A stretch of 64,000 bases of DNA from Stieleria bergensis (GTDB lineage: Bacteria > Planctomycetota > Planctomycetia > Pirellulales > Pirellulaceae): assembly GCA_007745635.1 (NCBI GenBank), contig CP036272.1:1701911-1765910 (forward strand), in the 5' to 3' direction. The position numbers and the translations under genes are program-made. Positions 14,308-60,055 of this stretch are shown piece by piece. Every line of letters begins with the position of its first letter. Position 1 is the first letter of the stretch. Below the pieces are notes generated by a model, which saw nothing but the letters and a program-made list of their open reading frames with translations, did no database searches and was not told where the DNA came from.

Positions 14308-15243
14308 TCACGGGATGTCTCCGCCAGCAGGCGAGGCGGGACCCGAGACGGGCACCACCAAATGATCTTCTGCCAGCGTCAGTTTCACCCTGGCCTCCAG
14401 CCCGTTCTGGCCTTGGCTCCTGGCCAATCCCACAGCACCCAGTTCCACAGCACCCAGTTCCACAGCACCCAGTTCCACAGCACCCAGTTCCACAGCGTCC
14501 ACCCCCAGAGCGTCCACCCCCAGAGCGTCCAATCCCGTGGCGACCTCATTAACGATCGCTTCGGGGTGCGGGTCCAGCGGATTGAGATGCGTGATCAACA
14601 CGTGCTGAGCCGCCGTCCCCTGAATGATCTCAACGAGCCTGTCCGACCAGGTGTGTCCGGTGGTCTCGGCCCACTTGGCAAGCTTGTTGGCAAAGTAGCA
14701 TTCATGCAGCATCAGGTTGGCTCCGCTCGCCCAGTCCAAAAACGCTGTCTCGGTGCTGCCAACGGTGTCGGTCAAGTACATCAGCTTGCACCCGCCGGTC
14801 CACTGCAGTCGGAACCCCAGTGAGCCACCAGGGTGTTGCTGGGCTCGCCAGTCAACGTTGCAGTCGCCCAGTTGAATCTCTGTCAACTCATCCAGGGCTC
14901 GCCACTGCAAGTCCAAGTCTAGGTGCTCCAGGCCCACGGGAAAGATCAGCTCGGAGAACAGGTGCGCGCGGATCGCATCAAGTTTTTTAGACTGTCCCCA
15001 TATTCGCAGGCGGCGGACGTTTTTCTCGTAAAGGACGTCCAGCAGGAAGGTCAGGCCCGCAATGTGGTCCAGGTGAGCATGGCTGAGAATGATGTCCAGC
15101 GTCTCGGTCTGGATGAAGTCTCGAACGCGAAATAAACCTGTTCCAGCATCCAGGATGATGCCTTCGCTGGGCAGGAAGTAACAGCTCGTGTGCCGGGTCT
15201 CGTTAGGGTGATAGCCTGCGGTTCCCAGGCAATGCAACTGCAT
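14308..15243 (-). CDS. MBL-fold metallohydrolase (RNase Z-like) with repeat tail
   Basis: The metal-binding motif HAHLDH (residues 55-60) followed by later His/Asp ligands (YLTDT, MLHECYF, ITHLNP) identifies a metallo-beta-lactamase fold hydrolase of the RNase Z/ElaC-like class; the exact substrate is unknown. The catalytic domain ends near residue 235. The last 75 residues are a low-complexity tail built from in-frame 15-bp DNA repeats giving GVDAL twice and GAVEL four times, then a short unique end. Such a tail is not part of the fold and looks like a recent expansion. Confidence 0.85.
   Translation of the reverse strand: MQLHCLGTAGYHPNETRHTSCYFLPSEGIILDAGTGLFRVRDFIQTETLDIILSHAHLDHIAGLTFLLDVLYEKNVRRLRIWGQSKKLDAIRAHLFSELIFPVGLEHLDLDLQWRALDELTEIQLGDCNVDWRAQQHPGGSLGFRLQWTGGCKLMYLTDTVGSTETAFLDWASGANLMLHECYFANKLAKWAETTGHTWSDRLVEIIQGTAAQHVLITHLNPLDPHPEAIVNEVATGLDALGVDALGVDAVELGAVELGAVELGAVELGAVGLARSQGQNGLEARVKLTLAEDHLVVPVSGPASPAGGDIP
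14431..14530. repeat. Two adjacent 15-bp tandem repeats inside the MBL-fold gene
   Basis: Four perfect copies of CACAGCACCCAGTTC (14431-14490) are followed by two copies and a partial third of CGTCCACCCCCAGAG (14496-14530). Both units are multiples of three and keep the reading frame. Confidence 0.95.
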
Positions 15244-15491
15244 GATCGATCACCGAAGTCAAAGGCAAGATGGCGTTCAGGTTTCGCTCTCAGTATACGC
15301 GATCTGCTGGGGCGATGGCATAGGGGATCACGCAGCCTGGCGAACAAGCCAATCAGCCACGCCGCAGCCTGCTTTCGCTTGCTCTGCTTTCCCTTACTCA
15401 GCTCTGCTTTCCCTTGCTCTGCTCGCTGGTTGAAATGTCCTGATGCCTCGTTCGCTGGACTTCGCTTTGGCGCCCCTGCTGGGCGTTTTGC

Positions 15492-16304
15492 TTAAGAGCC
15501 GAACAGTTTGAACGCGACAAGGTAAACCGCCAGCCCCACCGGATAGACAAACCCGAGGTTGGACATGTTGGAGCCGGTCAGGTTGTCCAGTGCTTCCTGA
15601 GTGTCGTCCAGGCCGTCCAGTTTGCCTTCCTTCTTGGCTGCCCCGTAGACGGCAAAAAACGTGATCATCTCTGGAATACTGGTGGCAAAACCAAGGATCC
15701 ACCCGGCCAGCGCCGGTCGCAGATTCATTTCGTTGACAACCGCCGCGGTGGCATCTCCCAGGAACGTTCCGACGACCACGATGGCTACCAGGACCGTGAT
15801 CATCAGGATGATGCCCAGCGGCAGATTGCCGCCCGCTGGATGCTCTTCTTCTCCTGTTTTCTTGTTGGCCTTGGCGTCCATCCACTGATAGAACACAAAC
15901 AACCCCAGCAGCAGTGGAACCAGGTACCACTGCGTTTCAAGGCCAAAGTGCATCAAGCCAATCGGCGTTAAGATCGCCAGCCCAGCAAAGAACAGTTCGT
16001 CAAAGAATCGCCAGTGCAACAGTTCATGGAGTTGCCGGTAACGAATTCCAGCCATGATCAGTAACACGACGTTGATAATGTTACTGCTGGCGATGTTCCA
16101 CAGGCCGGCTTCCCAAACGCCATGTAAGCCGGCTGCAACCAGGCAAACCAATTCGGGAACACTGGTGGCGTAACCGGTCAGTTTGCCGCGTGTCTTGACG
16201 GACAGGTTCAATGCTTCGGACACATGGTCAATGCCTTTCAGTAGACCGTACTTGACCAGAACAATAATCGCTCCGGCAGAAATCAGCATGATTAGCAATG
16301 ACAT
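15492..16304 (-). CDS. Sodium/calcium exchanger family antiporter
   Basis: The 270-residue membrane protein has the two inverted alpha repeats of the CaCA superfamily: GYATSVPELVCLVAA with SSNIINVVLL in the first half, and GFATSIPEMITFF with TGSNMSNLGFV in the second. The halves are joined by a charged cytoplasmic loop (MDAKANKKTGEEEHPAGG). It probably exchanges Ca2+ or another cation for Na+ or H+ across the inner membrane. At 270 residues it is a little shorter than YrbG-type members. It stands alone on the minus strand. Confidence 0.87.
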   Translation of the reverse strand: MSLLIMLISAGAIIVLVKYGLLKGIDHVSEALNLSVKTRGKLTGYATSVPELVCLVAAGLHGVWEAGLWNIASSNIINVVLLIMAGIRYRQLHELLHWRFFDELFFAGLAILTPIGLMHFGLETQWYLVPLLLGLFVFYQWMDAKANKKTGEEEHPAGGNLPLGIILMITVLVAIVVVGTFLGDATAAVVNEMNLRPALAGWILGFATSIPEMITFFAVYGAAKKEGKLDGLDDTQEALDNLTGSNMSNLGFVYPVGLAVYLVAFKLFGS

Positions 16305-16364
16305 TGATAAACACTTGTGTAGGTGTTGGATGATTGAACCGCCAGCTTGGCTGCTCGGCGGATG

Positions 16365-18190: not shown

Positions 18191-18219
18191 CTCCGCTGCC
18201 GGCGTTGCAAACGCCCCGA

Positions 18220-18283
18220 CTACTGTTGTGACTGGCTACTGCTGTGACTGGCTACTGTTGTGACTGGCTACTGTTGTGACTGG
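18220..18283. repeat. 16-bp tandem repeat spanning the dapA-like stop codon
   Basis: Four copies of CTACTGTTGTGACTGG, one with a single T-to-C change, run from intergenic DNA into the last codons of the DapA-like gene. The TAG stop lies in the first copy that the gene enters, so the expansion lies outside the reading frame. Confidence 0.93.
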
Positions 18284-19251
18284 AGCTGTGCGATGACTTG
18301 TTGCACAATCTTGTCGACCGCATCGTTGGACGCGGTTTCGCTGTGCTCGTCGACGTAGCTGTAAAGCAGGTCGTCGATTTGGCGCTGTGCGGATTGAATC
18401 GCGTCCAATTGATGATCTGAAAGTGGGACACGTCCTGGGCCGAGGTCCCAGCCCCGAGATCTGGCCCCGGCGCGGAAGCCTTCTGGGAATTCGCCAACAC
18501 TGATCATCGCATCAAACAGGGGCAGCAGTTGATACTGTAGCCGCATCGCTTTCTTGATGTCCCCATCCAGCACGCTGCGGTGGATCGCGCGGGTTAATTC
18601 GGGGACAACACCGCTGGTTGCGTTGGTGCCGCCGTTTGCTCCAGCAACCAGCATGGGAACCAAAGCAGCATCCCAGCCAGTTAAGAAGCAAAAGTCAGGA
18701 CGCATCGGACGGATCTGGGAAATCATCCGCATCATGTTGGGCAGGTCACCCGAGCTGTCTTTAATGCCCACCACGCGAGGGCATTCGGCTGCTAAACGAA
18801 CCACGGTGTCCACCGAAATCGGTGACGCGAAGAGCGGAATGTTGTACAGCGTGACGTCCACCGAGACGCGATCGGCGATCTCGCGGAAGTACGCATACAC
18901 ACCTTGATCAGAAAGCCGATAGTAGAACGGCGCGACAATGGCCACCGCACGGACGCCCATCGCGCCATAGTGGTCGCAGGCCTCGATGGTTTCTTGCGCG
19001 TTGGCTTCGGCAGCCCCAGCCAGAATCGGCACTCGGCCAGCGGCTTGCTCGACGACGACTTGAACAATGCGGCGTCGTTCTTGGGGAGTGAAGCGGACGA
19101 ATTCACCGGTGCTGCCGTTGGGGTACAGACCGTCCACCCCTTTTTCAATCAACCAGTCAATGTAGCGGCGTAAGGTGTCCTCGTCGATTCGTCCGGCGCT
19201 GTCGACAGGGGTGATGTTGGGGGTTAGGATCCCCGAAATCGGCTTGCTCAT
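18268..19251 (-). CDS. DapA/NAL-family (dihydrodipicolinate synthase-like) aldolase
   Basis: The 327-residue TIM-barrel protein has the family marks: pyruvate-carboxylate motif GSTGE (residues 46-50), Tyr in YNIP (Y136) and the Schiff-base Lys in GIKDSSGD (K164). This is a class I aldolase that condenses or cleaves pyruvate. It may be DHDPS (lysine pathway) or a sugar-acid lyase; the longer C-terminus and the absence of lysine genes nearby favour the second. The last 30 residues are Gln/Ser-rich and end inside a tandem repeat. Confidence 0.85.
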
Positions 19252-19663
19252 CGTTGTCTATCTGGCGTGGTCTCAAAGTGTGTTGGAAGGGCGTGGCGAG
19301 CGATCGGTTGCCGTGAGTTGGCGGTCTGCAGTCATCCACACCCGTTTGAAATCGGTCGCTATGGGGGAAGACTAGACCAATGTGTCATGAATGCCAGGAA
19401 TCAGTTTGTCGATCTGGTAGGAATCAACGATTATCCGGCTGGCGCCAGTGGAAGCGGCATCCAACGGCCTGAGGCAGCTTGCTGATGGGATCAAACGCTG
19501 GGAAGGCAAGCCCGAGGCGACTGGGATTCGTTTCCTGTTCACGCGCCGGTCCGCTGGGCCATCGTTTCAACTGGGCCATCGTTTCAACTGGGCCATCGTT
19601 TCAACTGGGCCATCGTTTCAACACACGCGCTGGGATAGGTGTCGCGGTGGTGTGGATGCCGTG
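19252..19663. other. Intergenic region with tandem repeat
   Basis: About 410 bp between the DapA-like gene and trhO, both on the minus strand. It contains a 17-bp tandem repeat (listed separately) close to the 3' end of trhO. No gene was seen. Confidence 0.6.
19556..19622. repeat. 17-bp intergenic tandem repeat
   Basis: Nearly four perfect copies of GGGCCATCGTTTCAACT in tandem, about 40 bp downstream of the trhO stop. The unit is not a multiple of three and the array is non-coding. Confidence 0.95.
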
Positions 19664-21240: not shown

Positions 21241-21477
21241 GGTGACAAGTTCCAGTAAGTTGGGTGAAGTTTCATTCCAGGAGGCGGCGTTTCGCCCACC
21301 TGATTGCCACATTATGCAACAGCGGCTTGCACCAAGAAAGAGGGGCAAACCGCGACCCGTTGCTGGTCGTCATCACGCGCTGGGCTGACAGGGCTTGACG
21401 ATGGGGGCGGTTTCCCGAACGGGACACCCGTCGAAGTGTCGCCCAGTGTGTCGCCGGGGTGTGTCGCCGGGGCGCGA

Positions 21478-24306: not shown

Positions 24307-25530
24307 ATGCCCTCAGCCGCCACTAGTCTGCCGAATTCGTCCTCTGCGGGATCGTCCAGAAACACGGGATCGTCCAGAAACACGGGATCGCCGAGAAACA
24401 CGGGGAAACACCTTGCAATGGCGTCAACGGCGGAACCTGAGACGGTGATTGGCCCTCTAGCGCTGGACGCACCCGTCGGCAATCCCACTTCACTGGACAC
24501 TCTGTCCGGCCAGGGCGGCGAAAGGAGTCCCGGGCCGAGTGAGCTGGCTCATTTGGCCAGACAGCGACTCGATTCCCCGCGATTCGATCACTCGCCGTCT
24601 TGGCGACGTCACTGCATGACTCTGTTTTGGCCGCCAACCTGCCGACTTTGTGACCACAGCGTGATGGTCGGGATGGAGCTGTGCGACAGCTGTTTTCGTC
24701 AACTTGAAATCAGTCGTTGCCACACGTCACAAGTCTGTTCTCGCTGCGGGCTGCCGGGGGCGGGAGCTTCATTGGCCGGAGCTTCATTGGCCGGAGCTTC
24801 ATTGGCCGGAGCTTCATTGGCCGGAGCTTCATTGGCCGGAGCTTCATTGGCCGGAGCTTCATTGGCCAGCCCTGTGGCCGATTCAGCGGCCAGCGGTTGT
24901 CTGGAGTGTCGTGATCAGACCTTGCATTACGATCGTTGCTTGTCGGTGTGGAGATACGATGGTTTAGTGCGGCAAGCGATTGTGGCGGCAAAATTTGGAC
25001 AGGCGGTCCCCCTGGCGGAAACGCTTGGAAAGCGTCTTGGCTGGCGCTTGCTAGCTGATGACACCTGGCTTCGTCAGTCCTGCCCGGTCGCGGACACGGA
25101 TGCGGCTCCGGATCTGATTGGTTGGGTGCCGTCGCATTTCTCGCGGCGAATGACGCGTGGCGGCGGCGGTGCTCAAGCGCTCGCGCGTGCGGTTCACTCT
25201 GTCTTGACGCGCCGTTGGCCGGATCTGTGTCGGGTTAACTTGCTGCGAACCACTCGGGTGGTCAAAAAGCAGGCTTGGCTGAGTGAAACGGAGCGAGCAC
25301 AGAATGTTCGCGGTGCCTTTGCTCCCCGGCGTCCCTGGCTGAATCGATCGATTCCTTCTTCCTGGCTGCGTCATCGGCTCGGTGGAACCGCAGCGATTGT
25401 CGCGGGCAAGCATGTGTTGGTTGTTGATGATGTCATGACCACCGGTGCCACGCTGAATGAAGTCGCTGGTGTGTTAAAGCGGGCCGGGGCAGCTCAGGTC
25501 ACAGTGGCCGTCGCAGCCAGGGCGGCGTGA
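24307..25530 (+). CDS. ComF family phosphoribosyltransferase-like protein with repeat insertions
   Basis: ComF-type proteins combine zinc ribbons with a PRT-like domain and take part in DNA uptake. Here the first zinc ribbon is CRLCDHS...LCDSCF, the second is split into CSRCGLPG and CLECRDQ, and the PRPP-loop is VVDDVMTTGATLNE near residue 370. Between the Cys pairs of the second ribbon sit seven GASLA copies from a 15-bp DNA repeat. The roughly 100-residue N-terminus also carries an 18-bp repeat (GSSRNT). ComF proteins are normally about 230-250 residues, so both insertions are unusual. A later ATG near 24418 is a possible true start, which would drop the first repeat. Confidence 0.88.
   Translation: MPSAATSLPNSSSAGSSRNTGSSRNTGSPRNTGKHLAMASTAEPETVIGPLALDAPVGNPTSLDTLSGQGGERSPGPSELAHLARQRLDSPRFDHSPSWRRHCMTLFWPPTCRLCDHSVMVGMELCDSCFRQLEISRCHTSQVCSRCGLPGAGASLAGASLAGASLAGASLAGASLAGASLAGASLASPVADSAASGCLECRDQTLHYDRCLSVWRYDGLVRQAIVAAKFGQAVPLAETLGKRLGWRLLADDTWLRQSCPVADTDAAPDLIGWVPSHFSRRMTRGGGGAQALARAVHSVLTRRWPDLCRVNLLRTTRVVKKQAWLSETERAQNVRGAFAPRRPWLNRSIPSSWLRHRLGGTAAIVAGKHVLVVDDVMTTGATLNEVAGVLKRAGAAQVTVAVAARAA
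24349..24402. repeat. 18-bp tandem repeat at the comF 5' end
   Basis: Three copies of GGGATCGTCCAGAAACAC, the third with two changes, in frame in the N-terminal region (position may be off by one base). The encoded unit is GSSRNT. Confidence 0.9.
24763..24867. repeat. 15-bp tandem repeat inside the comF zinc ribbon
   Basis: Seven perfect copies of GGAGCTTCATTGGCC, encoding GASLA seven times, between the two cysteine pairs of the second zinc ribbon. Complete identity of all copies points to recent expansion. Confidence 0.97.
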
Positions 25531-26926: not shown

Positions 26927-29900
26927 TTACTGGTCTGCGTAGACCTTGATGCTTTCTTCTTTGGTCACCGGGACGTCGTTTTGGTCGCTGGTCACGATCG
27001 CTTTGACCAAGTGACTACCCGGTGCGGCACCACGGGCTCGGAAGCGAAGCACAATTTCCTCGTTCGCTTTGAGCAGTCCCCGAGTTGGGAAGGCCACCAC
27101 GCCGTTGCCTTGCGGTGTGAAGTTTGCTTGCTCAAGCAACTCCATTCCCGGCGGCAATTGAACGGCAATGTTGACATTGGTGTCATCACGTGATCCGGTG
27201 TTGGCGACGCGAATTTCGAACGTGGACTCGCCACCGACTTCGATCGGGTCGGCGCTATCTGCGATCGAAAAGGTCAATTCGGCAAGCGCGTCGACATTCA
27301 CCTTGGTTTCGTGCTCCGTCGAAATGTTCAGATCCGCGACTGCTTGGGTCTTCAGGATGCGATTGCCTTCCTGTACCGGTAACAGTGTTAATGGGACGCG
27401 GCCGATTTGCCCAATTGGCAGAACCGGCAGTGACCAGAACACGGCGTGTCGGGCAGCATCATACTGGCCTTCAAAGTCTGTTTTGATGAACGTGAATCCA
27501 CGATCCAGTTGCACGCTTAGTTCGACGTTGGTTGCATCGGCGGTGCCGGTGTTGGCGATTTCGAGGTGATAGGTGGCCTGGCGTTCGAGGAATCGTTTGG
27601 TGGGGCCCGTCAGAGTAGCCTTCAATTCTGGGGCCACCACTTCGACGGCAACCGTGTGAGTCGCGTCCAAGCCATCGTCTCCTTTGACATGGATCTTGTT
27701 TTGCACAATGCCGGGTTTGACCGCTCGCATGCGCAGCAACTGGCGACGCGTTTGACCGGGACCCAGGGTGCCCAGGAAGTTGTCCAGCTGTTTGCCCGCC
27801 GGGTGATTGAGGCCTTCTGGCACGTCTTCTTGAAGCACAACGCCTGTGGCTTCGCCGGTTCCAGGGTTGCTGACTTCGAGTTCGATTTCAAGCTGTTGGC
27901 CGATCAGGACTTTTTCTGGAGCACGCTGTGAAACTTTCAGAGCGGGCCGAGTGCTGATGGTGCGTACCGAGGCCGCTGCCTGAAAGGTGACGCGAGCAAC
28001 GCTGCCCAGTTCACCTTCTTGGTCTGGACGCAATTGCATCGTAATGGTGCGTTCTTGGTTGGGTTCCAAGTCACCGAGTTCCCAGACAAGTTCATCGCTT
28101 GTATTGGGGTTCGGGGTGGGGGTCGCGTCGGTCAGCGTCATGCCGGCTGGGACGCGATCATGGACACGCACATTGAGGGCTTTGGATTTGCCGACGTTGC
28201 GGACTTGAATCAGGAAGCTGGCGGCTTTGCCAACCTTGACTTCTTGCGGGGCGCGTTTCTCGATGACAACCGAGGGGCTTTGGGGGCCGTCCAGGTAACG
28301 GTCGCCTGGAGCCGCCATGGTTGGTCCCACGGTAACGGGGACAGCAGGTGTGGGCTGGGCCTGCAAGTCCACGCTGCGTGGCGTGGCGGAAGCCGGCATC
28401 GTCGGTGTAGAGAATGTCGCCGTCGCTGGCAGTGCCGTCGCTGCAGCGCTGTTTCCAGCAAGTTCATTGGCGGTGGAGAGCGCCGCGGGGGCAGGCGTCT
28501 GAATGCTTTCCGACGCAGGCAGTGAAGCCGCCGCAGGCAGGGCTGCGATCTCTGCTGCTGGGCCGACGGCGGGTTGTGTGTTTTGTCCGGTGCGAAAACC
28601 GATCGTGCGAGCAGGGATCGCGACGCCTTGAGTTGCCGTGGCTGCTGTTGCAGGAGGGCCAACAGGCGGTGAAATCGCTGGCGTGCCCATGGTCAGGCTG
28701 GATCGCGAAGGTGGCGGTACAGGTGCTGGCGCCGCCGCAGGTGCTGGCAGTTCAGCAACGGTTGCCGCTGCATTGGCCGCTGCCGCTGCGGGAGCGCTCA
28801 CGACGGTGCCGTCTTGGCCAATGATAACCGGTTGGCCAACAAAGCCCATCGAGGCCGGCGTGCGGATGGCTGCAGGCTGCGGTGTTGCCGCAGGCTGGGC
28901 AGCCGCGTTGGTTGTGATTTGAGGCGTGGAATGGCCCCCATTTGGTGCAACGTTTGGTGCCGCGTTTGCTGAGGCAACGCTTGGCTGGCTTCCGGGCAGC
29001 AGCAAGCTGTCCGATCGAATTCGCATCGTCGCCTCACCGCGTGGACTGGCAGCGGGTTGCGGATTGCTGAATCCAGTGGCTGTTGTGTTTTCGGGGACAG
29101 ATTCAGTGGCGCGACGTAAATCGTTGGTCGCCCCGGGTGCGGCGCCGGTCTCCGTTGGCAGGCCACGCAGTGAAACGCTTGGCGCGCCGTTGGCTGCCGC
29201 TGAGACAGCAGGGTTGGTGTGAGTTGCAGCGGGCGATGCGACAACCGCTGATCCCACAACCGCTGATCCCACTGCTTGACCCTCGATGGTGACCGTTGGG
29301 TGGATGACCATGCGCGGCGCTGTGGCAGCGGCTTCTGATGCACTGGTTTCAGTCGTTGGTTGGCTTACAGGTCCAGATTCTGTGGGTGCCGATTCGGCAA
29401 GGACCGAGCCCGGTAGATTCAGTGTGTCGGGAAGTGGCATGGCTGGAGCAGCCGCAGCGGTCGTCGATGGCAAACTGATCGCTGGAGCGGCCTTGGTTGG
29501 CGCTTCGGTTTCAGCGGCGGAGCTGGCGGTGCTCTCGAAACTTGGGAAACGCATGCCAGACGCTGCGGCAGCTGGTGCTGCTGCGGCTTCGTTTTCGGCT
29601 GCCGCTTCGTCAGTGGCGGCATCCAGTGTTGCTTCGGTGTAGGCAACCAGTTTGATTGGGTCTTTCACGGGCAACAGCGAATCGCTGGGCGCGTTGTCTT
29701 CCTGGACGCCACTCAGGTGAGAAGCATCGCCACGCAGGTCATCGCTGACCTGTTTGAGGCGGTTGTCGATCTTGCTGAGGTCGGTGCCATCGGCAAGGGT
29801 TGCTGTCGCATCATCCGTCAGGTTGTTGCTGGCCGAAGCGGGGTTGGCGTCGCTATTTCTAAGAAGTAAAGCCAGGGTGGTTGCGACTGCAATGGTGGCA

Positions 29901-39377: not shown

Positions 39378-39677
39378 GGGATCTCTCTTTAGCAACCCGG
39401 TGGGGTGGAGTTGAAATCTGGCGAACTGACCGCTGAGCGAACTGGTCGCTGCGCACTCACTATTGTAAAGCTGCACAAGTTTTGCGGCGCGGGGGGAACC
39501 CGAAGAAATCCATTTTGCCACCCGATTTCCGCCCCCAATTGCCAACTTTGCGGACCATGAAGCGGGGGAAGTCCCAACCGGTGCGCTGGAGGAAGAACTC
39601 CGAAGACGCCAGCCCAGTGGCCGATTGAAGCCAGTGGCCGATTCAACCCAGTGGCTGATCTTCCTGGCTGAACGACT
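39378..39677. other. Intergenic region with 17-bp repeat
   Basis: Three copies of a 17-bp unit, CCAGTGGCCGATTGAAG and close variants, occupy 39614-39664 just downstream of adk. The other side presumably holds the promoter of the giant propeller gene. Confidence 0.7.
39614..39664. repeat. 17-bp intergenic tandem repeat after adk
   Basis: Three tandem 17-bp units; the first two differ at two bases and the third is more degraded (CCAGTGGCTGAT). The unit is not a multiple of three and the array is non-coding. Confidence 0.8.
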
Positions 39678-42042: not shown

Positions 42043-42540
42043 TCAGGCTTTTTCGCTTGCCAGAGCTGCAACACGTTCGGCAGGGGTGCGCTTGGCAACC
42101 AACTTGACGACGGTTCCGCCTGCAGCGGTAATTTTCTCTTCGGCCGACTTGCTGAAGCGGTGAGCGGCAACGGTCAGCTTCTTGGTCAGTTCCCCGTCGC
42201 CTAGAATCTTGACTTCGTCAAAGGTTCCTTTGGCAACGTCTTTGGCCGCCATGGCTGCCAGGGTGACTTCGTCGCCGTCGTTGAAGCGTTCGTTCAGCTT
42301 GCCAACGTTGACAGCGAAGACGGTCACGGCCCAGCGGTTATTGAAACCACGTTTGGGGACGCGACGGAACATCGGCATCGCACCGCCCTGGAAGCTAGGC
42401 TTGCGGCTGAAACCGCTGCGACTTTTCTGTCCCTTGTGACCTCGACCCGAAGTCTTCCCGGTACCGCTACCGGGGCCTCGACCGATTCGTTTACGCTTGC
42501 GGTTCTTTTGAATTCCGCGATGGACGTCATTTAGGTTCAT
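42043..42540 (-). CDS. rplO: 50S ribosomal protein L15
   Basis: The 165-residue L15 has the Gly-rich N-terminus [24 protein letters not shown]-like signature and [13 protein letters not shown]. It follows rpsE directly; rpmD (L30), normally between them, is missing from the 42-bp gap. C-terminal part ([13 protein letters not shown]) is slightly extended. Confidence 0.97.
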
Positions 42541-42582
42541 AACGAAACCCAGTGCTCAATGTAACAATGGTGTTGAACGTGA

Positions 42583-43146
42583 TTAGGCAGACAGTTCTTC
42601 GACTGTCAGGCCACGCAGGGCAGCAGCTTCTTCTTTGGTGCGAAGTTTAGCCAATGCTGCCACAGTTGCTTTGACCAAGGTCACGGGATTATTTGTTCCG
42701 TAAGACTTGGTCAGAATATCATGGATACCGCAAGCTTCACAAACAGCTCGAACTGCTTGCCCAGCGATGATCCCGGTACCAGCTCCGGCTGGAATCAGGG
42801 TGACTTTCGCTGCACCGAAGCTGCCCCAAACTTGGTGGGGAATGCTGCCTTCGACCAACGGCACGTTGATCATGTCGCGAGTCGCTTGCTTGGTGGCTTT
42901 TTGGACGCTTGGTGGAACTTCATTGGCTTTGCCGTAGCCCCAGCCGATGCGTCCTTTGGTATCACCGACGACGACCATTGCTGCAAAGCTGAAACGACGT
43001 CCACCTTTGACAACTGCCGCACAACGTTTGATTTTCACCACGTTGTCGACCAAGCCATCATCTTTTCTCTCTTCCGCTGGCTTGGAATTACGGCGACGAT
43101 TTTGGTTGCTTCCGCTACTAATGGTTCCGACCCTCAGTTGGTCCAT
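42583..43146 (-). CDS. rpsE: 30S ribosomal protein S5
   Basis: The 187-residue S5 has the dsRBD-like block AAVVKGGRRFSFAAMVVVGD and the C-terminal TGIIAGQAVRAVCEACGI. S5 helps decoding accuracy on the small subunit. A basic, Asn/Arg-rich N-terminus (NQNRRRNSKPAEERK) of about 30 residues precedes the core. Confidence 0.97.
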   Translation of the reverse strand: MDQLRVGTISSGSNQNRRRNSKPAEERKDDGLVDNVVKIKRCAAVVKGGRRFSFAAMVVVGDTKGRIGWGYGKANEVPPSVQKATKQATRDMINVPLVEGSIPHQVWGSFGAAKVTLIPAGAGTGIIAGQAVRAVCEACGIHDILTKSYGTNNPVTLVKATVAALAKLRTKEEAAALRGLTVEELSA

Positions 43147-43260
43147 CGAGATGGCTGGTTTGATTTCCGTGGTGAATCAGGTCAGCCGCACGAACGATGG
43201 AGTGAGTTTCTTAAAAGGGAGCTTGTTGTAAACAGGTAAGGTTGCTGACTGGCGTCGTGT

Positions 43261-43629
43261 TTAGACGACCAAACCAGCTTCGCGAGCTGCGTCGGCAAAT
43301 GCTTTGACGCGGCCGTGGTATTTGTTGTGTCCGCGGTCAAGCTTCGCTGCGGTGACACCGATGCCTTGAGCCTTGGCGGCGATCGCTTTACCGACGGTGG
43401 CCGCTGCATCGCAGTTACCGCCCGACTTGATCTCATCACGCACGGCTTTGTCACGAGTGCTGGCACTGGCGACCGTTTGGCCTGTTGAGTCGTCAACCAA
43501 CTGAACCGAAAAGTGCTTCAGTGTCCGTTGGACGCATAGGCGAGGCCGTTCGGCCGAGCCACGCAACACATTGCGAACGTGATTGCGGCGACGCAAACGT
43601 TGTTTTGCAAGTTTCTTGTTCTTGTCCAT
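43261..43629 (-). CDS. rplR: 50S ribosomal protein L18
   Basis: The 122-residue L18 binds 5S rRNA. Seen are the basic RLRRRNHVRNVLRGSAERPR start, FSVQLVDDSTGQTVASAST and the conserved end YHGRVKAFADAAREAGL. Spacing to rpsE is about 114 bp. Confidence 0.97.
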   Translation of the reverse strand: MDKNKKLAKQRLRRRNHVRNVLRGSAERPRLCVQRTLKHFSVQLVDDSTGQTVASASTRDKAVRDEIKSGGNCDAAATVGKAIAAKAQGIGVTAAKLDRGHNKYHGRVKAFADAAREAGLVV

Positions 43630-43710
43630 GGTGATGCCGTCCTAAAGTCGCGGCTTAAGTCTTTGTTATTTCGGTAGGTGTTGTCGACGGCATGATGGCC
43701 GTCAGACGAA

Positions 43711-44250
43711 TTACTTGGTGGCGCTCTTACCAGGCTTGATCTTGACGTGTTCGCCTTGGTAGCGAATGCCCTTGCCCTTGTAAGGTTCAGGCTTGCGAAG
43801 CGAGCGAACTTCAGCGGCAAACTGAGTCACTTGTTGCTTGTCACAACCTTGAACGACAATGTGCGTTTGGTCGGGGCAAGTGACGGTCAGTTCCTTGGGG
43901 ATCGTTTGGTGCAGTTCGTTGGCAAAGCCGACGCGAAGCTGCAGGGTGTCACCTTGAATGTTGCAAAGGTAACCGACACCAACGATTTCAAGACGACGCT
44001 CAAAGCCTTTGGTCACGCCTTCAACCATATTGTTGACCAGGGCGCGTGTCAGGCCGTGAAGTTCACGAGCGGTGCGTGAATCGTCTTCTCGTTTCACGAC
44101 AACGGTATTGTCTTCGACGATGACGGCGACTTCCGGACGATGCGTGAAATCCAGCTTGCCCTTAGGGCCTTCGACCGTGATCTTTCCGTCAGCAACACCG
44201 ATGGTCACTCCACCGGGAACTTCGATTGGTTTATTTCCGATACGACTCAT
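43711..44250 (-). CDS. rplF: 50S ribosomal protein L6
   Basis: The 179-residue L6 starts SRIGNKPIEVPGGVT and ends with the conserved EPYKGKGIRYQGEHVKIKP. Two repeated alpha/beta domains as in the family; normal length. Confidence 0.98.
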   Translation of the reverse strand: MSRIGNKPIEVPGGVTIGVADGKITVEGPKGKLDFTHRPEVAVIVEDNTVVVKREDDSRTARELHGLTRALVNNMVEGVTKGFERRLEIVGVGYLCNIQGDTLQLRVGFANELHQTIPKELTVTCPDQTHIVVQGCDKQQVTQFAAEVRSLRKPEPYKGKGIRYQGEHVKIKPGKSATK

Positions 44251-44418
44251 TTCAGATCACTTGCTGAAAGCGTGGTTGCAAATTGCAAACGTGGGTTGCT
44301 TTGTTTGCCAGCCAGGCGGACTGCCTGACGGCTGTGTAGTTTGGTGTCGGCTTTGCGTGAGTTTGCCTGTGGTCAGGCAAACACTCGGGAAAGCTGTTGG
44401 ACTGCTAAACCGTTTGGT

Positions 44419-44814
44419 TTAGGCGATTTCGCAAAGGACTTCGCCGCCCACGTTTTCGCGGCGAGCTTCACGATCACTGATCACACCTTTGCTGGTGCTG
44501 ATGATGGTGATTCCCATTCCGCCCAACACGGGTTTCAGGTCTTTGCAGTGTGCGTACAGTCGACGTCCTGGTTTGCTCATGCGGCGGATCGTTTGGATCA
44601 CGCGTTCGCCGTTGGAGCCGTATTTCAGCTCTAAACGCAAAACGTTGACGGGTTTTTCATCGACTTCTGACCAATCCCAGATAAAGCCTTCGCGCTTTAG
44701 CACGTCAGCAATACCGCGTTTAACGCGGCTAGCGGGAACATCCACGTAAGCGCGTTCAACGTGAACGGCGTTTCGGATGCGGGTCAACATGTCGGCAATA
44801 GGGTCTGTCATCAT
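44419..44814 (-). CDS. rpsH: 30S ribosomal protein S8
   Basis: S8 binds the central domain of 16S rRNA. The TDPIADMLTRIRNA start and the end block GITIISTSKGVISDREAR are diagnostic. ATG at 44814 (or 44811) gives the usual 131 residues with GGAG upstream; the frame is open to 44859. It is preceded by rpsN. Confidence 0.97.
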   Translation of the reverse strand: MMTDPIADMLTRIRNAVHVERAYVDVPASRVKRGIADVLKREGFIWDWSEVDEKPVNVLRLELKYGSNGERVIQTIRRMSKPGRRLYAHCKDLKPVLGGMGITIISTSKGVISDREARRENVGGEVLCEIA

Positions 44815-44836
44815 GGCTTTTTGTCGCTCCGTTGTC

Positions 44837-45022
44837 CTACCAGCTGGCCTTACGAACACCGGGGATCAAACCCTTGTCGGCGTTTTCGCGGAAACAAATA
44901 CGGCACAGTCCAAACTTGCGATAGACCGCACGAGGTCGTCCGCAGAACTTGCATCGATTTTCGCGACGGGTACTGAACTTAGGACTCCGATTCGCCTTGG
45001 CGATTTTTGATTTACTTGCCAC
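44837..45022 (-). CDS. rpsN: 30S ribosomal protein S14, zinc-binding type
   Basis: The 61-residue short form has four cysteines in CKFCGRP and LCRICFRE, the zinc-ribbon (C+) S14 type, and ends [11 protein letters not shown]. It lies between rplE and rpsH as in most spc operons. Confidence 0.97.
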
Positions 45023-45085
45023 GGGCTGTCTTGGGGTTGCAGCAGTGAAACGGTATGCAAACTAAATTGTTTTGTAAAACGACGC

Positions 45086-45658
45086 CTACGCGGCACCGCT
45101 CTTTTCGGGAGCCGCTTTGAATGGCATGCCGAACAATTCCAATAGGGTTCTGGCTTCGTCGTCGGTTTTGGCCGAGGTAACGAAGGTCAAGTTCATGCCT
45201 TGCGGGCGGGTGAACTTGTCGGGATTCAACTCAGGGAAGACCAACTGCTCGGTCAATCCCATGGTGTAGTTGCCGTTGCCGTCGAAAGCTTTGCGGTTGA
45301 TCCCGCGAAAGTCACGAACACGTGGCAACACCAAGGCAACCAAACGATCCAAGAATTCATACATCTTGGCTCGACGCAGCGTGACCATGCAGCCGATTGG
45401 CATGCCTTCACGTAAACGGAAACCAGCGATGCTCTTGCGAGCGTAGGTGGTCACGGGCTTCTGCCCACTGATTTGGGTCATGGCGTCGTAAGCCAAGTCC
45501 AAAACCTTCTTATCACCCACCGCCTGGCCGACACCCATGTTAAGGGTGACCTTTTCCAAGCGAGGAATTTGGTGTGGATTGCTGTAGCCGTACGCTTCGA
45601 TCAGCTTGGCGCGGATCGACTCTTCGTAAGCGGTTTGTAGTCGTGGAACGTATGTCAT
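45086..45658 (-). CDS. rplE: 50S ribosomal protein L5
   Basis: The 190-residue L5 binds 5S rRNA and helix 84. Signature blocks are RLEKVTLNMGVGQAVGDKK, TYARKSIAGFRLREGMPIG and VRDFRGINRKAFDGNGNY. Normal length. Confidence 0.98.
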   Translation of the reverse strand: MTYVPRLQTAYEESIRAKLIEAYGYSNPHQIPRLEKVTLNMGVGQAVGDKKVLDLAYDAMTQISGQKPVTTYARKSIAGFRLREGMPIGCMVTLRRAKMYEFLDRLVALVLPRVRDFRGINRKAFDGNGNYTMGLTEQLVFPELNPDKFTRPQGMNLTFVTSAKTDDEARTLLELFGMPFKAAPEKSGAA

Positions 45659-45663
45659 ATTAC

Positions 45664-46011
45664 TTACGCCTTCTTGTAACGGTCGCGGGCGGGAGCGATC
45701 TTGCCGAGTGAGGCACCGCTCTTCTTTGCGTAACGCTCCTTCGAGCCATCTTCCAGGTAGCGAACGCCAAGGCGTGTCGTTTGACCGGTCGATTGTTCGA
45801 CGTACATCACGTTGCTGGCTTGAATGGGCATCTCTTTACTAAGACGGCCACCCTGCGTGTTCTTTTGGCTGCGAGCCACGTGCTTGAGAACCAGGCCGGC
45901 TCCTTCCACAACGACTTTGTTTTTCTTGCGGTCGCAGACCAGGATCTTGCCACGATGACCTTTGTCACCACCGGCGATCACCTCGACTACGTCGTCTACT
46001 TTCAGCAACAT
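45664..46011 (-). CDS. rplX: 50S ribosomal protein L24
   Basis: The 115-residue L24 has the KOW motif VIAGGDKGHRGKILV near the N-terminus and KNTQGGRLSKEMPIQASNV. It ends 5 bp before rplE. Confidence 0.97.
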   Translation of the reverse strand: MLLKVDDVVEVIAGGDKGHRGKILVCDRKKNKVVVEGAGLVLKHVARSQKNTQGGRLSKEMPIQASNVMYVEQSTGQTTRLGVRYLEDGSKERYAKKSGASLGKIAPARDRYKKA

Positions 46012-46109
46012 GACAGGAACTGTGTTTGGGGGATTGCCAGACCGTGTGAACGGTGCGGCGGTTTCTAAATGTTTGGAGATCAGTCTCGACTCAGGCGGGA
46101 AGCAGTTGT

Positions 46110-46478
46110 TTAGACAACTTCGCTGGCCAAGGAAACGATCTTCATGAATTTACGTTCGCGAAGTTCGCGGCCAACAGCACCAAAGATCCGTGTTCCGCGG
46201 GGGCTCTGGTCTTTGTCGATCAAAACGACGGCGTTGCTATCGAATTTGATGTAGCTGCCATCGGTACGTCGTACCGGAGTCTTGGTGCGAACGATGACCG
46301 CTCGCACGATCGACTTCTTCTTGATGTCACTACCGGGAATGACATTCTTGACACTGCAAACGATGACATCACCCAGGCGGGCAAAGCGTCGACGGCTTCC
46401 GCCGAGCACCTTGATGCACATCACTTCGCGGGCGCCGGTGTTATCGGCAACGTCAAGGCGTGTTTCTTGTTGGATCAT
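46110..46478 (-). CDS. rplN: 50S ribosomal protein L14
   Basis: The 122-residue L14 begins with [20 protein letters not shown]-type sequence and ends [15 protein letters not shown]. Fully standard length and order. Confidence 0.98.
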
Positions 46479-46578
46479 GGCTGACTGTTAAACCTAAAAC
46501 GGTTAATACTTGTGTATTGGTGGCCAAGCCGGGAAGATCAGTTGAATGTTTCAACGGTTCTTCTCCGGCGTTGCTGAA

Positions 46579-46902
46579 TCAGCCTTCGCTGGCGTCTTCA
46601 GCAGTCTCGGCTTTCTCAGCTTCTCGACGGGCTGCCCGCAGGGCGAGCAAGTCGACGTCGGTGCTCTTCTCGATCACTCGAACCAGTGTCCAGCGTTTGG
46701 TTTTGCTGATGGGTGCTGATTCAATGATCTCGACGAGGTCACCGGCACCGGACTCGTTGTTCTCGTCATGGACGTGACAAACGGTGCGGCGGCTGATGTA
46801 TTTCTTATACTTGGGGTGCTTCACCGAACGGTTGAATTCGACGCGGCGCGTCTTGTCCATTTTGTCGCTGGTGACGATGCCCGAAACTACGCGTTTTGGC
46901 AT
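46579..46902 (-). CDS. rpsQ: 30S ribosomal protein S17
   Basis: S17 binds 16S rRNA early in assembly. The core ([47 protein letters not shown]) is followed by an Ala/Glu-rich tail (about 20 residues, ending [10 protein letters not shown]) absent in E. coli. ATG 46902 begins the family N-terminus and lies 4 bp after the rpmC stop. Confidence 0.96.
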
Positions 46903-46906
46903 TTTC

Positions 46907-47128
46907 TTAAGCTTCGGCTTGAGTGGTGTTGGCTGCTGCTTTGGCTCGCTCGGTCTGGATCGTCTTAATCCGAGCAATCAAACGACGGTGTTTACGCATG
47001 TCACTCGGCGTGCTCAGTCGCTCGCTCTGTGATTCAAATCGCAAACGGAACAGCTCACGAGCCGCGTCATCGGCGGTCGCTTGGAGCTGTTCGTCGCTCA
47101 TTTCTCGCAGTTCGGTATTGCTGGTCAT
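46907..47128 (-). CDS. rpmC: 50S ribosomal protein L29
   Basis: The 73-residue helical L29 has [25 protein letters not shown] and [11 protein letters not shown]. It lies at the tunnel exit near the trigger-factor docking site. The order rplP-rpmC-rpsQ is standard. Confidence 0.96.
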
Positions 47129-47174
47129 GACCAGGCCTTCGTTACAAAATCAGTGGTTCGGTTAATAATCGGTC

Positions 47175-47591
47175 TCAGAACGTGCGTCGTTTGACGAATC
47201 GTACTTGCACCGGTAGTTTGCTTGCCAATCGTGCGAAACAAACCTTTGCTTGCTGTTCGGTGACTCCGCCCAGCTCATAAAGGATGGTTCCGGGCTTGAC
47301 AACCGCGGCCCAGAAGTCAGGCTCACCCTTACCTTTACCCATCCGAGTTTCCAGTGGAGTACTGGTCACGGACTTGTCGGGAAAGATCCGAATGTAAAGC
47401 TTGCCTTCACCGCGGACATATTGTTGAGCAGCGATACGACCAGCTTCGATGGTGGTTGCTTTAACCCATCCGGCATCCAAAGATTGAAGGCCGAAATCAC
47501 CGAAGACAACCGTGTTGCCTCGAGTCGCACTACCTTTTATGCGCCCTCTTTGGCTTTTTCGATGCTTGACCCGTTTGGGCATCAGCGCCAT
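47175..47591 (-). CDS. rplP: 50S ribosomal protein L16
   Basis: The 138-residue L16 contains [17 protein letters not shown] and [14 protein letters not shown]. Its 5' end overlaps the 3' end of rpsC by up to 62 bases in another frame. Starts at ATG 47591 or 47582 are both possible; the second matches the common MPKR start. The long overlap suggests tight coupling of S3 and L16 translation. Confidence 0.96.
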
Positions 47592-48240
47592 CGTTGTCGT
47601 CTCCGTAGTTACCTTGGTTAATCCAGACCTGAATTCCGATGTGCCCCTGTGGCGTCATCGCTTCGGTCGTTCCGTAATCGATTCGTGCTTGCAACGTGCT
47701 CAATGGAATTGAGCCCGAGCTTTGCTTTTCGCGGCGAGCCATTTCAGCCCCGCCAAGACGTCCTGCCAATTGGATCTTGATCCCTTTGGCACCGGCGTCC
47801 ATGGTTTGTTCCAGCGAGCGTTTCATGGTCCGGCGGAAGCTCGATCGCTTTTGCAATTGCTGAGCGATGTCTTGGGCGACCAATTGTGCTTGCAGTTCCG
47901 GACGGCCGACTTCTTCAACTTTCAAGTTGATACGGCGTCCGATCAGGTTTTGCAGTTCAGCCTGGAGGATTTCAATCTCCTGCCCCTTTTTACCGATGAT
48001 CAAACCTGGTCGAGCGACGAACAACATGACGCGTACTTCGTCACGTGTCCGTTCGATTTCGATCCGGTCGATGCCGGCGCTTTTGTACTGGCTTTTCTTG
48101 GGGTGGTTGGTGATGAAGTTTCGCAGTTTGCGATCTTCAACCAACAAATCGGCGAAGTCTTGCTTGGATGCGTACCAGCGACTTGCCCAGCCCCGGGTGA
48201 CACCGGTACGGAACGCGATCGGGTTGACTTTTTGTCCCAT
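47530..48240 (-). CDS. rpsC: 30S ribosomal protein S3
   Basis: The 236-residue S3 has the KH domain (GLIIGKKGQEIEILQAEL) and the C-terminal fold (RRTMKRSLEQTMDAGAKGI, GAEMARREKQSSGSIPL). S3 lines the mRNA entry channel. The Asp/Lys-rich tail ([18 protein letters not shown]) runs into rplP. Confidence 0.97.
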   Translation of the reverse strand: MGQKVNPIAFRTGVTRGWASRWYASKQDFADLLVEDRKLRNFITNHPKKSQYKSAGIDRIEIERTRDEVRVMLFVARPGLIIGKKGQEIEILQAELQNLIGRRINLKVEEVGRPELQAQLVAQDIAQQLQKRSSFRRTMKRSLEQTMDAGAKGIKIQLAGRLGGAEMARREKQSSGSIPLSTLQARIDYGTTEAMTPQGHIGIQVWINQGNYGDDNDGADAQTGQASKKPKRAHKR

Positions 48241-53581: not shown

Positions 53582-54477
53582 ATCGTGTGCGGCGGCATTA
53601 TGCACTGAAAATTGATCTCGGCAAGGCCTGCGGGGCAAATGTGTAGAAAATTGTTTTGGAATTTTGCCCTGCTTCGGATCGGTTTCGCCAGAGGCGTGTT
53701 GGGTGGCGCTGCCGGTCGGGTGAATCGAACGGCTCGGTCCACTTCGGTGTGTTCTTGGTCAACGGGTGCGCATTGGTGAATGGGGCGCCGTTGGTGAACG
53801 GGGTGCATTGGTGAATGGGACGCCGTTGTGTGAATTCCTTCGTGCTGTGCTGGAAGTCCCTCAGCGCTGGGCGGGTGAGTCGGCTGCTGTGAGACGTCAT
53901 GGCCAGGGAGTGGATGAGTAAATGGACGCGTAAAAATCGGGGAATCGGCTTGTCGATTCGGAGCGATGCACGCTAGATTACCGGTTTGGTTGAAACCCTG
54001 GGCATTGATGTCAAGTCGGTTTCTGGCATGCGTGATGCCGATGAGAGGCCATCGATCGTTGATGTTTTGTGGTCTTGAACGACTGCTCATTGACCGGCGG
54101 TTGAGGCTGACGCTCGATCGGTGAACGCTTCTGTTAGCGACACAGTGTGGTTGATCATGCAGTTCGGCCGATGATTCGTTCGGCTGGTAAGTACTGTGGC
54201 TGATCAATACTGTCGCAGTTTTGCACAGCACGATTGGGCAAGGTAAACAGCATCGAAGCGCAGCGTGCCAATACGGTCATTGCAAATGAGATCAAACGCG
54301 GTCCGCTGCGGTCGTGATCAGATGTGAGGCTGTCCATTGTGAGATTGTGCGGATGCGATGACTCCAGAGTGTTGTCATTTGCATTCGCAGCGATGATTTG
54401 TTGCGGCACCGTGGGCTGCAGCGTGAGTGAATCAAAGAACATTCCCCTCTACCAGTTTTTCAAAGGTGTCTCTTAGG
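53582..54477. other. Intergenic region upstream of trigger factor
   Basis: About 895 bp. A degenerate repeat built from CATTGGTGAATGGG and CGCCGTTGGTGAACGGGG units lies at about 53770-53830. The long minus-strand frame covering part of it also runs over the tRNA and looks like chance. Promoters for tig and tRNA-Gly must lie here. Confidence 0.55.
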
Positions 54478-57951: not shown

Positions 57952-57999
57952 TAATAGGGGCTGGGAAAATTCGGTGCTGGAGAAACAACAGGTGCTGGA

Positions 58000-58302: not shown

Positions 58303-58350
58303 GACAGACGCTTTACTCATCTCGCTGCATCTTTCATTTGAGCTGAAACC

Positions 58351-59268
58351 ATGGAACAGTCATTTTTGGCCTACTTGCGCGGACGGACCAGTGAATTGCC
58401 ACAGGTCGAAGTTGGGATCGGCGACGATGCAGCGGTCATCCTGCCAGGCCCCGGGCCTCTGGTGGCCTGCACCGATCAAATCATCGCAGGCGTTGACTTT
58501 GAGCTGCCCGCCGCGTCGCTGCATGATGTGGGTTACAAGTCGATGGCCATTAACTTAAGTGATCTTGCCGCGATGGGAGCGGTAGCGGAATCCGCGCTGG
58601 TGACATTGGCGCTGCCCAAGGAAAATGCAACCCAGATCGCCGGTGAGGTTTACGAAGGAATTCTCGAAGCTGCCGATGCTTTCCAAGTCGCGATCGCTGG
58701 CGGTGACTTGACCACCTATGATGGTCCTCTGGCGATCAGCGTGACGTTACTGGGACGCTGTCCCGATGGTCAGCCTTGGCTGCGCAGTGGTGCTCAGGAA
58801 GGGGACGTCGTGCTGGCTAGTGGCGCCTTTGGCGGTAGCATTTTGGGACGCCACTTGCGTCCAGTGCCACGCAATGAGTTGGCGCTGGCCATTCGTCGGC
58901 TAGGTGTCACCGTGAACGCGGCGATCGACGTGAGTGATTCCTTGTCGATCGATTTGGATCGGTTATGTGCTCGCAGTGGAGTCGGCGTGGACTTGGAAGT
59001 CGACGCGATTCCCGTTCACCCTGATGCTGACCGCTTGGCCGAGCAATCCGGCCGCCGAGCTTTCGAGCATGCCTGGAGCGATGGAGAGGACTTCGAACTG
59101 CTGTTGACCCTGTCGGCGGACGATGCGGGACAATTGCTTGCGGCTGCTGAGCTGCCCGCACCACTGACACCGATCGGCAAAGTCATCGGTCGGACGGGGC
59201 TGTGGATGATGGAAGACGGCAAACATGTGCGACTTTCCCCACAGGGTTACATTCACGGCGACCAGTGA
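58351..59268 (+). CDS. thiL: Thiamine-monophosphate kinase
   Basis: ThiL makes thiamine diphosphate from the monophosphate with ATP. The 305-residue protein has the PurM-type GIGDDAAVI near residue 22, GDLTTYDGPLAISVT, and the C-terminal ISDS-like VSDSLSIDLDRL with SDGEDFELLLTL. Normal length. Other thiamine genes are not seen here. Confidence 0.94.
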   Translation: MEQSFLAYLRGRTSELPQVEVGIGDDAAVILPGPGPLVACTDQIIAGVDFELPAASLHDVGYKSMAINLSDLAAMGAVAESALVTLALPKENATQIAGEVYEGILEAADAFQVAIAGGDLTTYDGPLAISVTLLGRCPDGQPWLRSGAQEGDVVLASGAFGGSILGRHLRPVPRNELALAIRRLGVTVNAAIDVSDSLSIDLDRLCARSGVGVDLEVDAIPVHPDADRLAEQSGRRAFEHAWSDGEDFELLLTLSADDAGQLLAAAELPAPLTPIGKVIGRTGLWMMEDGKHVRLSPQGYIHGDQ

Positions 59269-59605
59269 GCCAGTCGCCGTGGTCTTTTCCATGGGACGCC
59301 AGACGTGATGGGTGCCAGGCGTCGAACTCATCGATCTCTAGCAAGGCAGCGATCCCTGGGTGGCCGGTCTGTGATTCGCCGAAACTTTTCTGCTCCGCCG
59401 AGCATCCATCCCCAGCGACCAGCGTTCGAAGATTACAATACGTGGCGACGCCCTTTTGGGTACCGGAGGAGGATGCATTGGTGGCAATTCCGATGGCTTC
59501 CCCTGCTCTTTCGGTGCTCTCGTCGTTTTCTGCTGACATCGGTGGTTGCCTGCAACGACCGGTCGCTGCAGCGTTTCATTCAACCAAGTGTCGGAAGCCA
59601 GATCG
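59269..59605. other. Intergenic region upstream of second FHA gene
   Basis: About 335 bp without a convincing gene. A TACAAT box near 59436 with TTCGAA upstream is a weak promoter candidate; nothing else was recognised. Confidence 0.4.
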
Positions 59606-60055
59606 ATGAATGCTCAATCTGAACGTTGTAAAGTGGTCATGCTGGATCCAGAAAGCGGTGGCCAGCTGCAGTCTTGGATCGTTGAATTGCCCGCCAAGCT
59701 TGGGCGGGGAATCTTTGCGGACATCAGCATTGATCATCCCTCGATCAGTCGGCGACATTGCGAGTTTTTCATGGATGCTGAGGGGCAGGTCTCCGTCCGT
59801 GATTTAGGCAGCAAGAACGGAGTCTACGTCAATGGCACCAAGCTCGATCAGGGGCCCATTGAATCCAGCGCGCGAGTTCGAATCGGTTTGGTTCAGTTGA
59901 AACTGGACACCACCGTGGAGCCAGTCGATGGACAGGCTGCCGGTCCCGGCAAGGGCTTGGCCAGCGGCCAAGCCACCGGAGATGAGACCAAAGCCGTGAA
60001 TTTGTACCCCGGTCAGTCGGGGTCCGGCCAGTCAGGGTCCGGCCAAGAAAATTAG
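59606..60055 (+). CDS. FHA domain protein
   Basis: A 149-residue protein consisting of one FHA domain (LGRGIFADISI, SRRHCEFF, LGSKNGVYVNG, about residues 25-110) and a Gly/Ser/Gln-rich tail that ends in two copies of SGSGQ from a 15-bp DNA duplication. It reads phosphothreonine on a partner. With the FHA-GAF-PP2C gene 1.6 kb away this suggests a Ser/Thr phospho-signalling locus. ATG 59606 starts a few residues before the domain. Confidence 0.87.
   Translation: MNAQSERCKVVMLDPESGGQLQSWIVELPAKLGRGIFADISIDHPSISRRHCEFFMDAEGQVSVRDLGSKNGVYVNGTKLDQGPIESSARVRIGLVQLKLDTTVEPVDGQAAGPGKGLASGQATGDETKAVNLYPGQSGSGQSGSGQEN
60008..60050. repeat. 15-bp duplication at the end of the FHA gene
   Basis: Two copies of a 15-bp unit (GTCAGTCGGGGTCCG and GCCAGTCAGGGTCCG, slightly diverged) encode GQSGS twice in frame just before the stop. 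Confidence 0.8.

Follow-up and report, generated by a model that had tools for sequence, protein, structure and literature searches.

Short tandem arrays of narrow unit length across the Stieleria bergensis chromosome

Introduction

Among the published patterns we have seen, the closest to the one described here is that of the tandem repeats in Borg elements, archaeal extrachromosomal elements whose A-rich units measure 18-36 nt where PMC9879509 mentions them; in the available text of that source, coding units are all divisible by three, as against 14-38% of intergenic ones. Bacterial minisatellites, or variable-number tandem repeats, likewise form head-to-tail arrays with units of 10-30 bp that are multiples of three in genes, and the accessible part of a prokaryote satellite survey, which requires at least four copies, credits Rhodopirellula baltica with 29 satellites, or 4.06 per Mb (PMC6749651). 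Further sources, available in part, include a table in which seven of eight planctomycetes have a tandem-repeat content of 10-20 bases per kb, unit lengths being absent from that part (PMC4807772), and a discussion of units of up to 11 bp (PMC4060949). Here we analyze the short tandem arrays of Stieleria bergensis, starting from a 64-kb stretch of DNA (the window, positions 1,701,911-1,765,910 of the single 7,107,266-base contig of genome G000) in which an earlier note, made from the sequence alone, had described nine tandem-repeat loci. The tandem-repeat observation is real and extends genome-wide.

As far as the available text of PMC9879509 describes Borg repeats, the S. bergensis arrays resemble them in that unrelated units are scattered over the whole genome, recent and rarely kept between close relatives; in that unit sequences are unique to each locus, judged here by 2-5-base k-mers and with a few repeated units in one cluster, L167; in their coding repeats of disorder-type residues; and in a divisibility by three that holds for coding units (48/48 here) and for an intergenic share of 31% here (18/58), within the range given for Borgs. 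They differ in composition, as Borg units are strongly A-rich whereas the A content of 55 leading-strand-oriented non-coding units is 0.188 here, compared with 0.176 in their flanks; in host, which is here a bacterial chromosome present as a single 7.1-Mb contig, with Stieleria tagensis as the closest named relative by its TrhO-like protein; and in a tight non-coding window of 13-19 bp that contrasts with the unit lengths mentioned for Borgs. By their head-to-tail units of about 10 bp or longer, the arrays can be classed with the bacterial minisatellites, among which they are unusual in their density, narrow size window and patchy spread within one genus. Arrays of at least four copies, called with Tandem Repeats Finder, number 41 in 1.264 Mb, or 32.4 per Mb, a figure obtained with other software than the survey in PMC6749651 and only roughly comparable to it, in whose accessible part we noticed no 13-19 bp window. 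A report of such a window in planctomycetes was not found among the matches listed by our search, which left most subscription literature outside its reach.

Results

To the window were added 1.2 Mb from five stretches of the same chromosome, giving a sample of 1.264 Mb (about 20 times the window), and arrays were called under a strict rule that accepts units of 12-21 bp in at least two exact copies at their smallest period. The sample holds 113 such arrays, or 8.94 per 100 kb, which become 97 once neighbours within 5 bp are merged, whereas three third-order Markov simulations of the same DNA at equal length yielded none of 12-21 bp; the excess over simulated sequence is large, against the refuting condition of the earlier note, and an additional simulated set agrees for the periods it covers. 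The excess over two real control replicons is also large, with no array of 12-21 bp in 200 kb of E. coli K-12 and two, both of 12 bp, in 250 kb of Sinorhizobium pSymB. A Pseudomonas set of 77 loci (1.545 Mb, with one other-genus locus and one other locus omitted) contained four, but it represents a single gene neighbourhood repeated, and we therefore give more weight to E. coli and pSymB. When mismatches are allowed, as in Tandem Repeats Finder (TRF), the contrast to Pseudomonas is smaller than under the exact-copy rule, the 12-21 bp range numbering 159 arrays in the 1.264 Mb of S. bergensis and 47 in the 1.545 Mb of Pseudomonas, 26 of the 47 having 21-bp units. Exact arrays comprise 2-7 copies and the largest TRF array 15.6. 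Scans with a minimum period of 8 bp, which underlie the results on two-copy lengths, microhomology, k-mers, strand, hairpins, residue composition, indels and chromosomal density, show some 7-bp arrays as 14 bp; recounting at the smallest period moves one array in S. bergensis and lowers the counts in three relatives, from 10 to 8 in G002, from 7 to 6 in G004 and from 4 to 1 in G049.

The units are confined to a narrow range of lengths. Among non-coding arrays of 12-21 bp, 55 of 58 units measure 13-19 bp, with counts of 1, 9, 12, 12, 7, 9, 3 and 3 at successive lengths from 12 to 19 bp, none at 20 bp and two at 21 bp, and one further array has a 39-bp unit, a pile-up that bears out the length preference claimed by the earlier note. 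Over all classes, eight arrays have shorter units of 5-11 bp (with 12 or more matching bases), and units longer than 21 bp number three, of 24, 30 and 39 bp. The non-coding window is slightly wider in TRF, where mismatches are tolerated (mean 16.4, standard deviation 3.0, for units of 8-30 bp). Two-copy arrays and arrays of three or more copies occupy the identical window, and the length is therefore fixed at the birth of the first duplicate.

Within genes, this size window is overlaid by a strict filter for reading frame. Every one of the 48 coding units is divisible by three, compared with 18 of the 58 outside called genes (Fisher P = 1.8e-15), and merging neighbours leaves the contrast in place at 37/37 and 18/54 (P = 3.6e-12); the test omits arrays at gene edges, seven unmerged and six merged, and relies on a home-made gene caller, under which an array that broke the frame might divide its gene and so drop out of the coding class. 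Scaled from the density in non-coding DNA, genes would hold about 179 frame-breaking arrays in the absence of a frame effect, and none was seen; in-frame units have a density of 4.65 per 100 kb inside genes versus 7.80 outside. With mismatches allowed, 61 of the 64 coding arrays in the 12-21 bp range have units divisible by three; two of 19 bp and one of 20 bp do not, and these are weak (76-84% matches), as is one of 25 bp. Selection for reading frame, as proposed in the earlier note, is thus supported; the non-coding lengths of 13, 16 and 17 bp that it gave reflect its small sample, non-coding units being mostly 13-19 bp genome-wide, with 15 bp among them. Some arrays counted as non-coding are in fact coding, because the caller missed the 5' part of the comF-like gene. 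In the coding units Gln, Ser, Pro, Ala and Asn are abundant, whereas Phe, Tyr, Met and Cys do not occur, and the coding arrays are spread along the whole gene, with 9/45 in the first fifth and 9/45 in the last.

Comparison with relatives, made between species at selected loci and with one genome per species, bears on where the units come from. At the 3' end of the DHDPS-family gene in the window, a 16-bp gene end including the stop codon is present four times in S. bergensis and unrepeated in the 11 alignable of 13 relatives. The SpoU-methylase gene carries no repeat in G012 and G003, three extra copies of one 15-bp unit, two bases off the native stretch, in G006, and two extra copies of a different 15-bp unit at the same spot in G001, with a nearby 18-bp duplication in G001 and G006 only. 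In the ComF linker, S. bergensis has seven copies of ASLAG and G013 a different 15-bp array, AMPVT x2.5, and the ComF-like protein of G002 has a PVLGG/PVLGD array elsewhere in the protein. By hand count, tandem duplications with 12-, 15- or 18-bp units make up 6 of 15 distinct sister-species indels of 9-60 bp, a tally that leaves out a 17-bp duplication (71% identity) and indels with poorly aligned flanks. Identical, old repeats shared by all relatives were not seen, the compared loci having one copy or other units. At these loci the units derive from sequence that is native and single-copy, and they vary from species to species.

The units share no common motif. No 2-5-base k-mer is clearly enriched in 155 merged units, whose composition shows a slight GC excess and a shortage of CG and TA; the intergenic classes hold arrays as expected from their length, without bias; and no replication-strand bias was found among the arrays. 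GC skew along the chromosome, positive as far as the window, is about zero at 2.5-2.7 Mb and turns negative in the samples at 3.5 and 5.5 Mb. Extra homology at the ends of 32 clean two-copy arrays amounts to 0-1 bp in 15 and to at least 4 bp in 13 (chance, about 0.5), a split that is rough because five of the ten zero-homology arrays come from L167 and one long-homology array is really of 7 bp; 19 two-copy arrays of relatives divide similarly, 9 with 0-1 bp and 7 with at least 4 bp. Long microhomology is therefore unnecessary. Hairpins at array boundaries give no general signal, appearing only exactly at the edge in 7 of 302 edges, six from a palindrome cluster in L167 and one from L214. A few repeated units also lie in the L167 cluster. 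The palindrome GGGGACWGTCCCC itself clusters at L167:18534-19760 (G000:C1 ~1,018,534-1,019,760) and L169:12560-13247, with 13 exact matches in L167, 5 in L169 and 1 each in L187 and L242, and several 14-17 bp duplications of the two clusters start or end at or beside its centre. Separately, two contig ends of G017, a member of another genus (L003 = C30 and L011 = C18), carry 15-bp arrays with a GGAGCTTCAYTGGCY-like unit close to that at position 24763 of the window, a likeness that possibly reflects chance convergence or an assembly break at a long array.

The arrays are patchily distributed. Expressed as arrays of 12-21 bp per 100 kb, and with many samples small (kb in brackets), the density within Stieleria is 8.9 in S. 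bergensis (1264), 8.0 in G002 (100), 6.0 in both G004 (100) and G012 (100), 4.0 in G001 (100), 2.5 in G008 (40) and 0 in G011 (40), G010 (120) and G007 (20), so that five of the nine sampled Stieleria have 4-9. Other genera of the family, to which Rhodopirellula baltica also belongs, range from 13 in G017 (100) and 12.5 in G036 (40) through 5 in G062 and G065 (40 each) and 2.5 in G030, G042 and G049 (40 each) to 0 in G035 and G041 (40 each), and other families from 1 in G024 (100) to 0 in G023 (100) and in G085 and G103 (20 each). At the S. bergensis density, the clear zeros are G010, with 10.7 arrays expected (Poisson 2e-5), and G023, with 8.9 expected (1e-4), both values being optimistic because that density is uneven along the chromosome. 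The scope of the earlier note, which spoke of planctomycetes, was accordingly too broad, given the patchiness within Stieleria and the 0 and 1 per 100 kb in two families of the same order. G049 shows another unit-length spectrum within the same family, with eight 7-bp-unit arrays in 40 kb (L263-L264) and one of 12-21 bp.

In the window, mapped with TRF and an exact periodicity scan, all nine loci of the earlier note were recovered with small corrections (Table 1), together with at least two arrays absent from its list, which are among the weaker rows; the density there is typical (8 arrays in 64 kb, or 12.5 per 100 kb). Two of its assignments needed amending: the locus at 18220, described as non-coding, is not purely so, since the DHDPS-family gene terminates, stop codon included, within the copy closest to it, and the array at 24347-24404 is coding, with the peptide GSSRNT, only if translation starts at the TTG at 24304, and lies otherwise in a 5' leader. 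The seven ASLAG copies sit in the linker joining the zinc-ribbon and phosphoribosyltransferase parts of the ComF-like protein and match the Pfam pentapeptide repeat with 25.7 bits (cut-off 20.2). In the metallo-beta-lactamase-fold protein, the part shared with homologues stops at residues 238-265 in 12 of 12 matching relatives, and at 238-244 in ten of them, approximately where its repeats begin. The frame that covers the array at 53755-53834 has no Pfam match. Elsewhere in the window, short genes follow one another on the minus strand at positions 42043-48240, with L15- and S3-type ribosomal proteins among their products; this is probably a large ribosomal protein cluster, and it contains none of the listed arrays.

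Table 1. Tandem arrays of the 64-kb window (window coordinates)
Position	Strand	Unit	Location	Method
14430-14496	-	15 bp x4.5, 100%, peptide AVELG	C-terminal tail of metallo-beta-lactamase-fold protein (14308-15243)	TRF + periodicity scan
14490-14531	-	15 bp x2.8, 96%, peptide DALGV	Second unit, adjoining the AVELG array in the same C-terminal tail	TRF + periodicity scan
15381-15424	.	20 bp x2.2	Intergenic; absent from the earlier list	TRF
18220-18283	-	16 bp x4.0, 95%	Straddles 3' end and stop codon of DHDPS-family gene 18268-19251	TRF + periodicity scan
19554-19622	.	17 bp x4.1, 100%	Intergenic, TrhO-like (UPF0176/rhodanese) gene to DHDPS-family gene	TRF + periodicity scan
21446-21472	.	13 bp x2.1	Intergenic	TRF + periodicity scan
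24347-24404	+	18 bp x3.2, 95%	Near 5' end of ComF-like reading frame	TRF + periodicity scan
24759-24867	+	15 bp x7.3, peptide ASLAG; seven exact copies at 24763-24867	ComF-like protein	TRF + periodicity scan
29241-29272	-	15 bp x2.1, VGSAV	About residue 221 of 1002-residue DUF11-repeat protein	TRF + periodicity scan
39613-39659	.	17 bp x2.8, 86%	Between adenylate kinase gene 39678-40244 and PQQ/TPR-repeat frame 34839-39545 (both minus)	TRF + periodicity scan
53755-53834	.	35 bp x2.2, unit itself a doubled ~18-bp unit	Absent from the earlier list	TRF
60009-60045	+	15 bp x2.5, 90%	C-terminal tail (GQSGSGQSGSGQEN) of FHA-domain protein	TRF + periodicity scan

Discussion

We consider it probable, at roughly 0.6, that the arrays are independent products of one de novo, sequence-independent and size-limited tandem duplication process that operates at the polymerase level by slippage or fill-in. 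In such a process, 13-19 bp of whatever local sequence is at hand would be copied and placed directly beside the original during replication or gap filling, the nascent end slipping back some 15 nt or a displaced end equally long being used again. Loops of 13-19 nt are too large for MutS-type repair, and the loop so formed would escape it and be sealed in; the resulting two-copy array could then grow by ordinary slippage, while purifying selection would clear frame-shifting arrays from genes and leave coding units in which Gln, Ser, Pro, Ala and Asn abound. The enzyme and a ruler of about 15 nt would be the hypothetical components of the process. The proposal of the earlier note is supported in both its halves, the length preference, to which one dedicated mechanism may give rise, and the frame filter.

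Several observations weigh against such a process. Simple slippage predicts broad lengths and microhomology at the ends, whereas the window is narrow and homology is present in only part of the arrays. Array density varies about ten-fold along the chromosome, 200-kb stretches having values between 2.5 and 24.5 per 100 kb, and shows no clear origin-terminus trend in the sampled stretches. None of the replication and repair genes tested distinguishes dense genomes from empty ones: all 12 tested genomes, whether dense or empty, have MutS and exonuclease VII, and SbcD gave no match above the curated cut-off in any of 12 genomes, with weaker partial matches in 11, and therefore cannot explain the difference. 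The PolA of S. bergensis has the 5'-nuclease domain PF02739, in which an alignment to E. coli PolA shows nine carboxylates, all of them retained. Loss of a PolA/FEN1-type flap nuclease was accordingly rejected as a candidate cause, as far as domain and alignment indicate, and so was loss of MutS or exonuclease VII. As to end joining, Ku (PF02735) had no match in 27 of 30 genomes, S. bergensis included. With Ku not found, the PolA residues kept, MutS and exonuclease VII present and no gene separating the genomes, duplication at the polymerase level is favoured over end joining.

The alternative that survives best, although we hold it to be unlikely, is that staggered double-strand breaks, with nicks about 15 bp apart on opposite strands, are filled in and joined, so that unit length equals the stagger. 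A fixed stagger would account for the narrow window, the 0-1 bp of extra end homology in 15 of 32 two-copy arrays fits this model as well, and the available part of PMC8355091 describes it for plants and animals, where it likewise gives short local tandem duplications. That model, as presented there, is double-strand-break repair by joining, whereas Ku is missing from the matches in S. bergensis and was found in only one of 14 Stieleria (G008:C42:509137-509682), a genome with a single array in 40 kb.

An ordinary mutation process, in which all bacteria duplicate at times and weak selection or low loss lets arrays pile up in some Pirellulaceae, ranks next and seems to us improbable. Several coding arrays do lie in tolerant tails and linkers, and Rhodopirellula baltica is already listed as moderately rich in satellites in the accessible part of PMC6749651. 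Weak selection, however, leaves the narrow window unexplained, the frame selection is strong (none seen versus 179 expected), and the congener G010 has zero arrays in 120 kb where 10.7 are expected. Far less credible is the view that the arrays are selected features, such as binding sites, regulatory RNAs or repeats with a structural role in proteins, or that they are copies of a mobile repeat family: a few units are indeed alike, as with the GGAGCTTCAYTGGCY-like unit of S. bergensis and the two G017 contig ends, but no k-mer of 2-5 bases is clearly enriched in the 155 merged units, the intergenic class matches the length expectation, arrays are not kept between sister species at the compared loci, and differing units and lengths occur side by side. 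A dispersed satellite or mobile family was rejected on the lack of sequence sharing between loci by those k-mers. Chance or assembly artefact is very improbable, with no array of 12-21 bp in the simulations, 48 of 48 coding units keeping a frame that is invisible to an assembler, and the same pattern in several separate assemblies.

Returning to polymerase-level duplication, spontaneous tandem duplications are usually expected to span a broad range of lengths, and the narrow window therefore suggests that the enzyme involved has a footprint or reach of fixed size. More tentatively, and as a possibility on which we would not yet wager, some Pirellulaceae may possess a characteristic and switchable process of mutation whose molecular ruler measures about 15 nt, producing blunt or near-blunt duplications of arbitrary sequence, gained or lost between sister species and feeding five-residue repeats into linkers and tails. 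With dense and empty species in one genus, Stieleria makes the cause searchable by genome comparison and mutation accumulation. The process supplies ready-made short peptide repeats, from which new disordered linkers, and pentapeptide-like stretches such as the ComF array, could plausibly arise; if true, a ruler-based process would continually feed new five-residue repeats into the linkers and tails of proteins.

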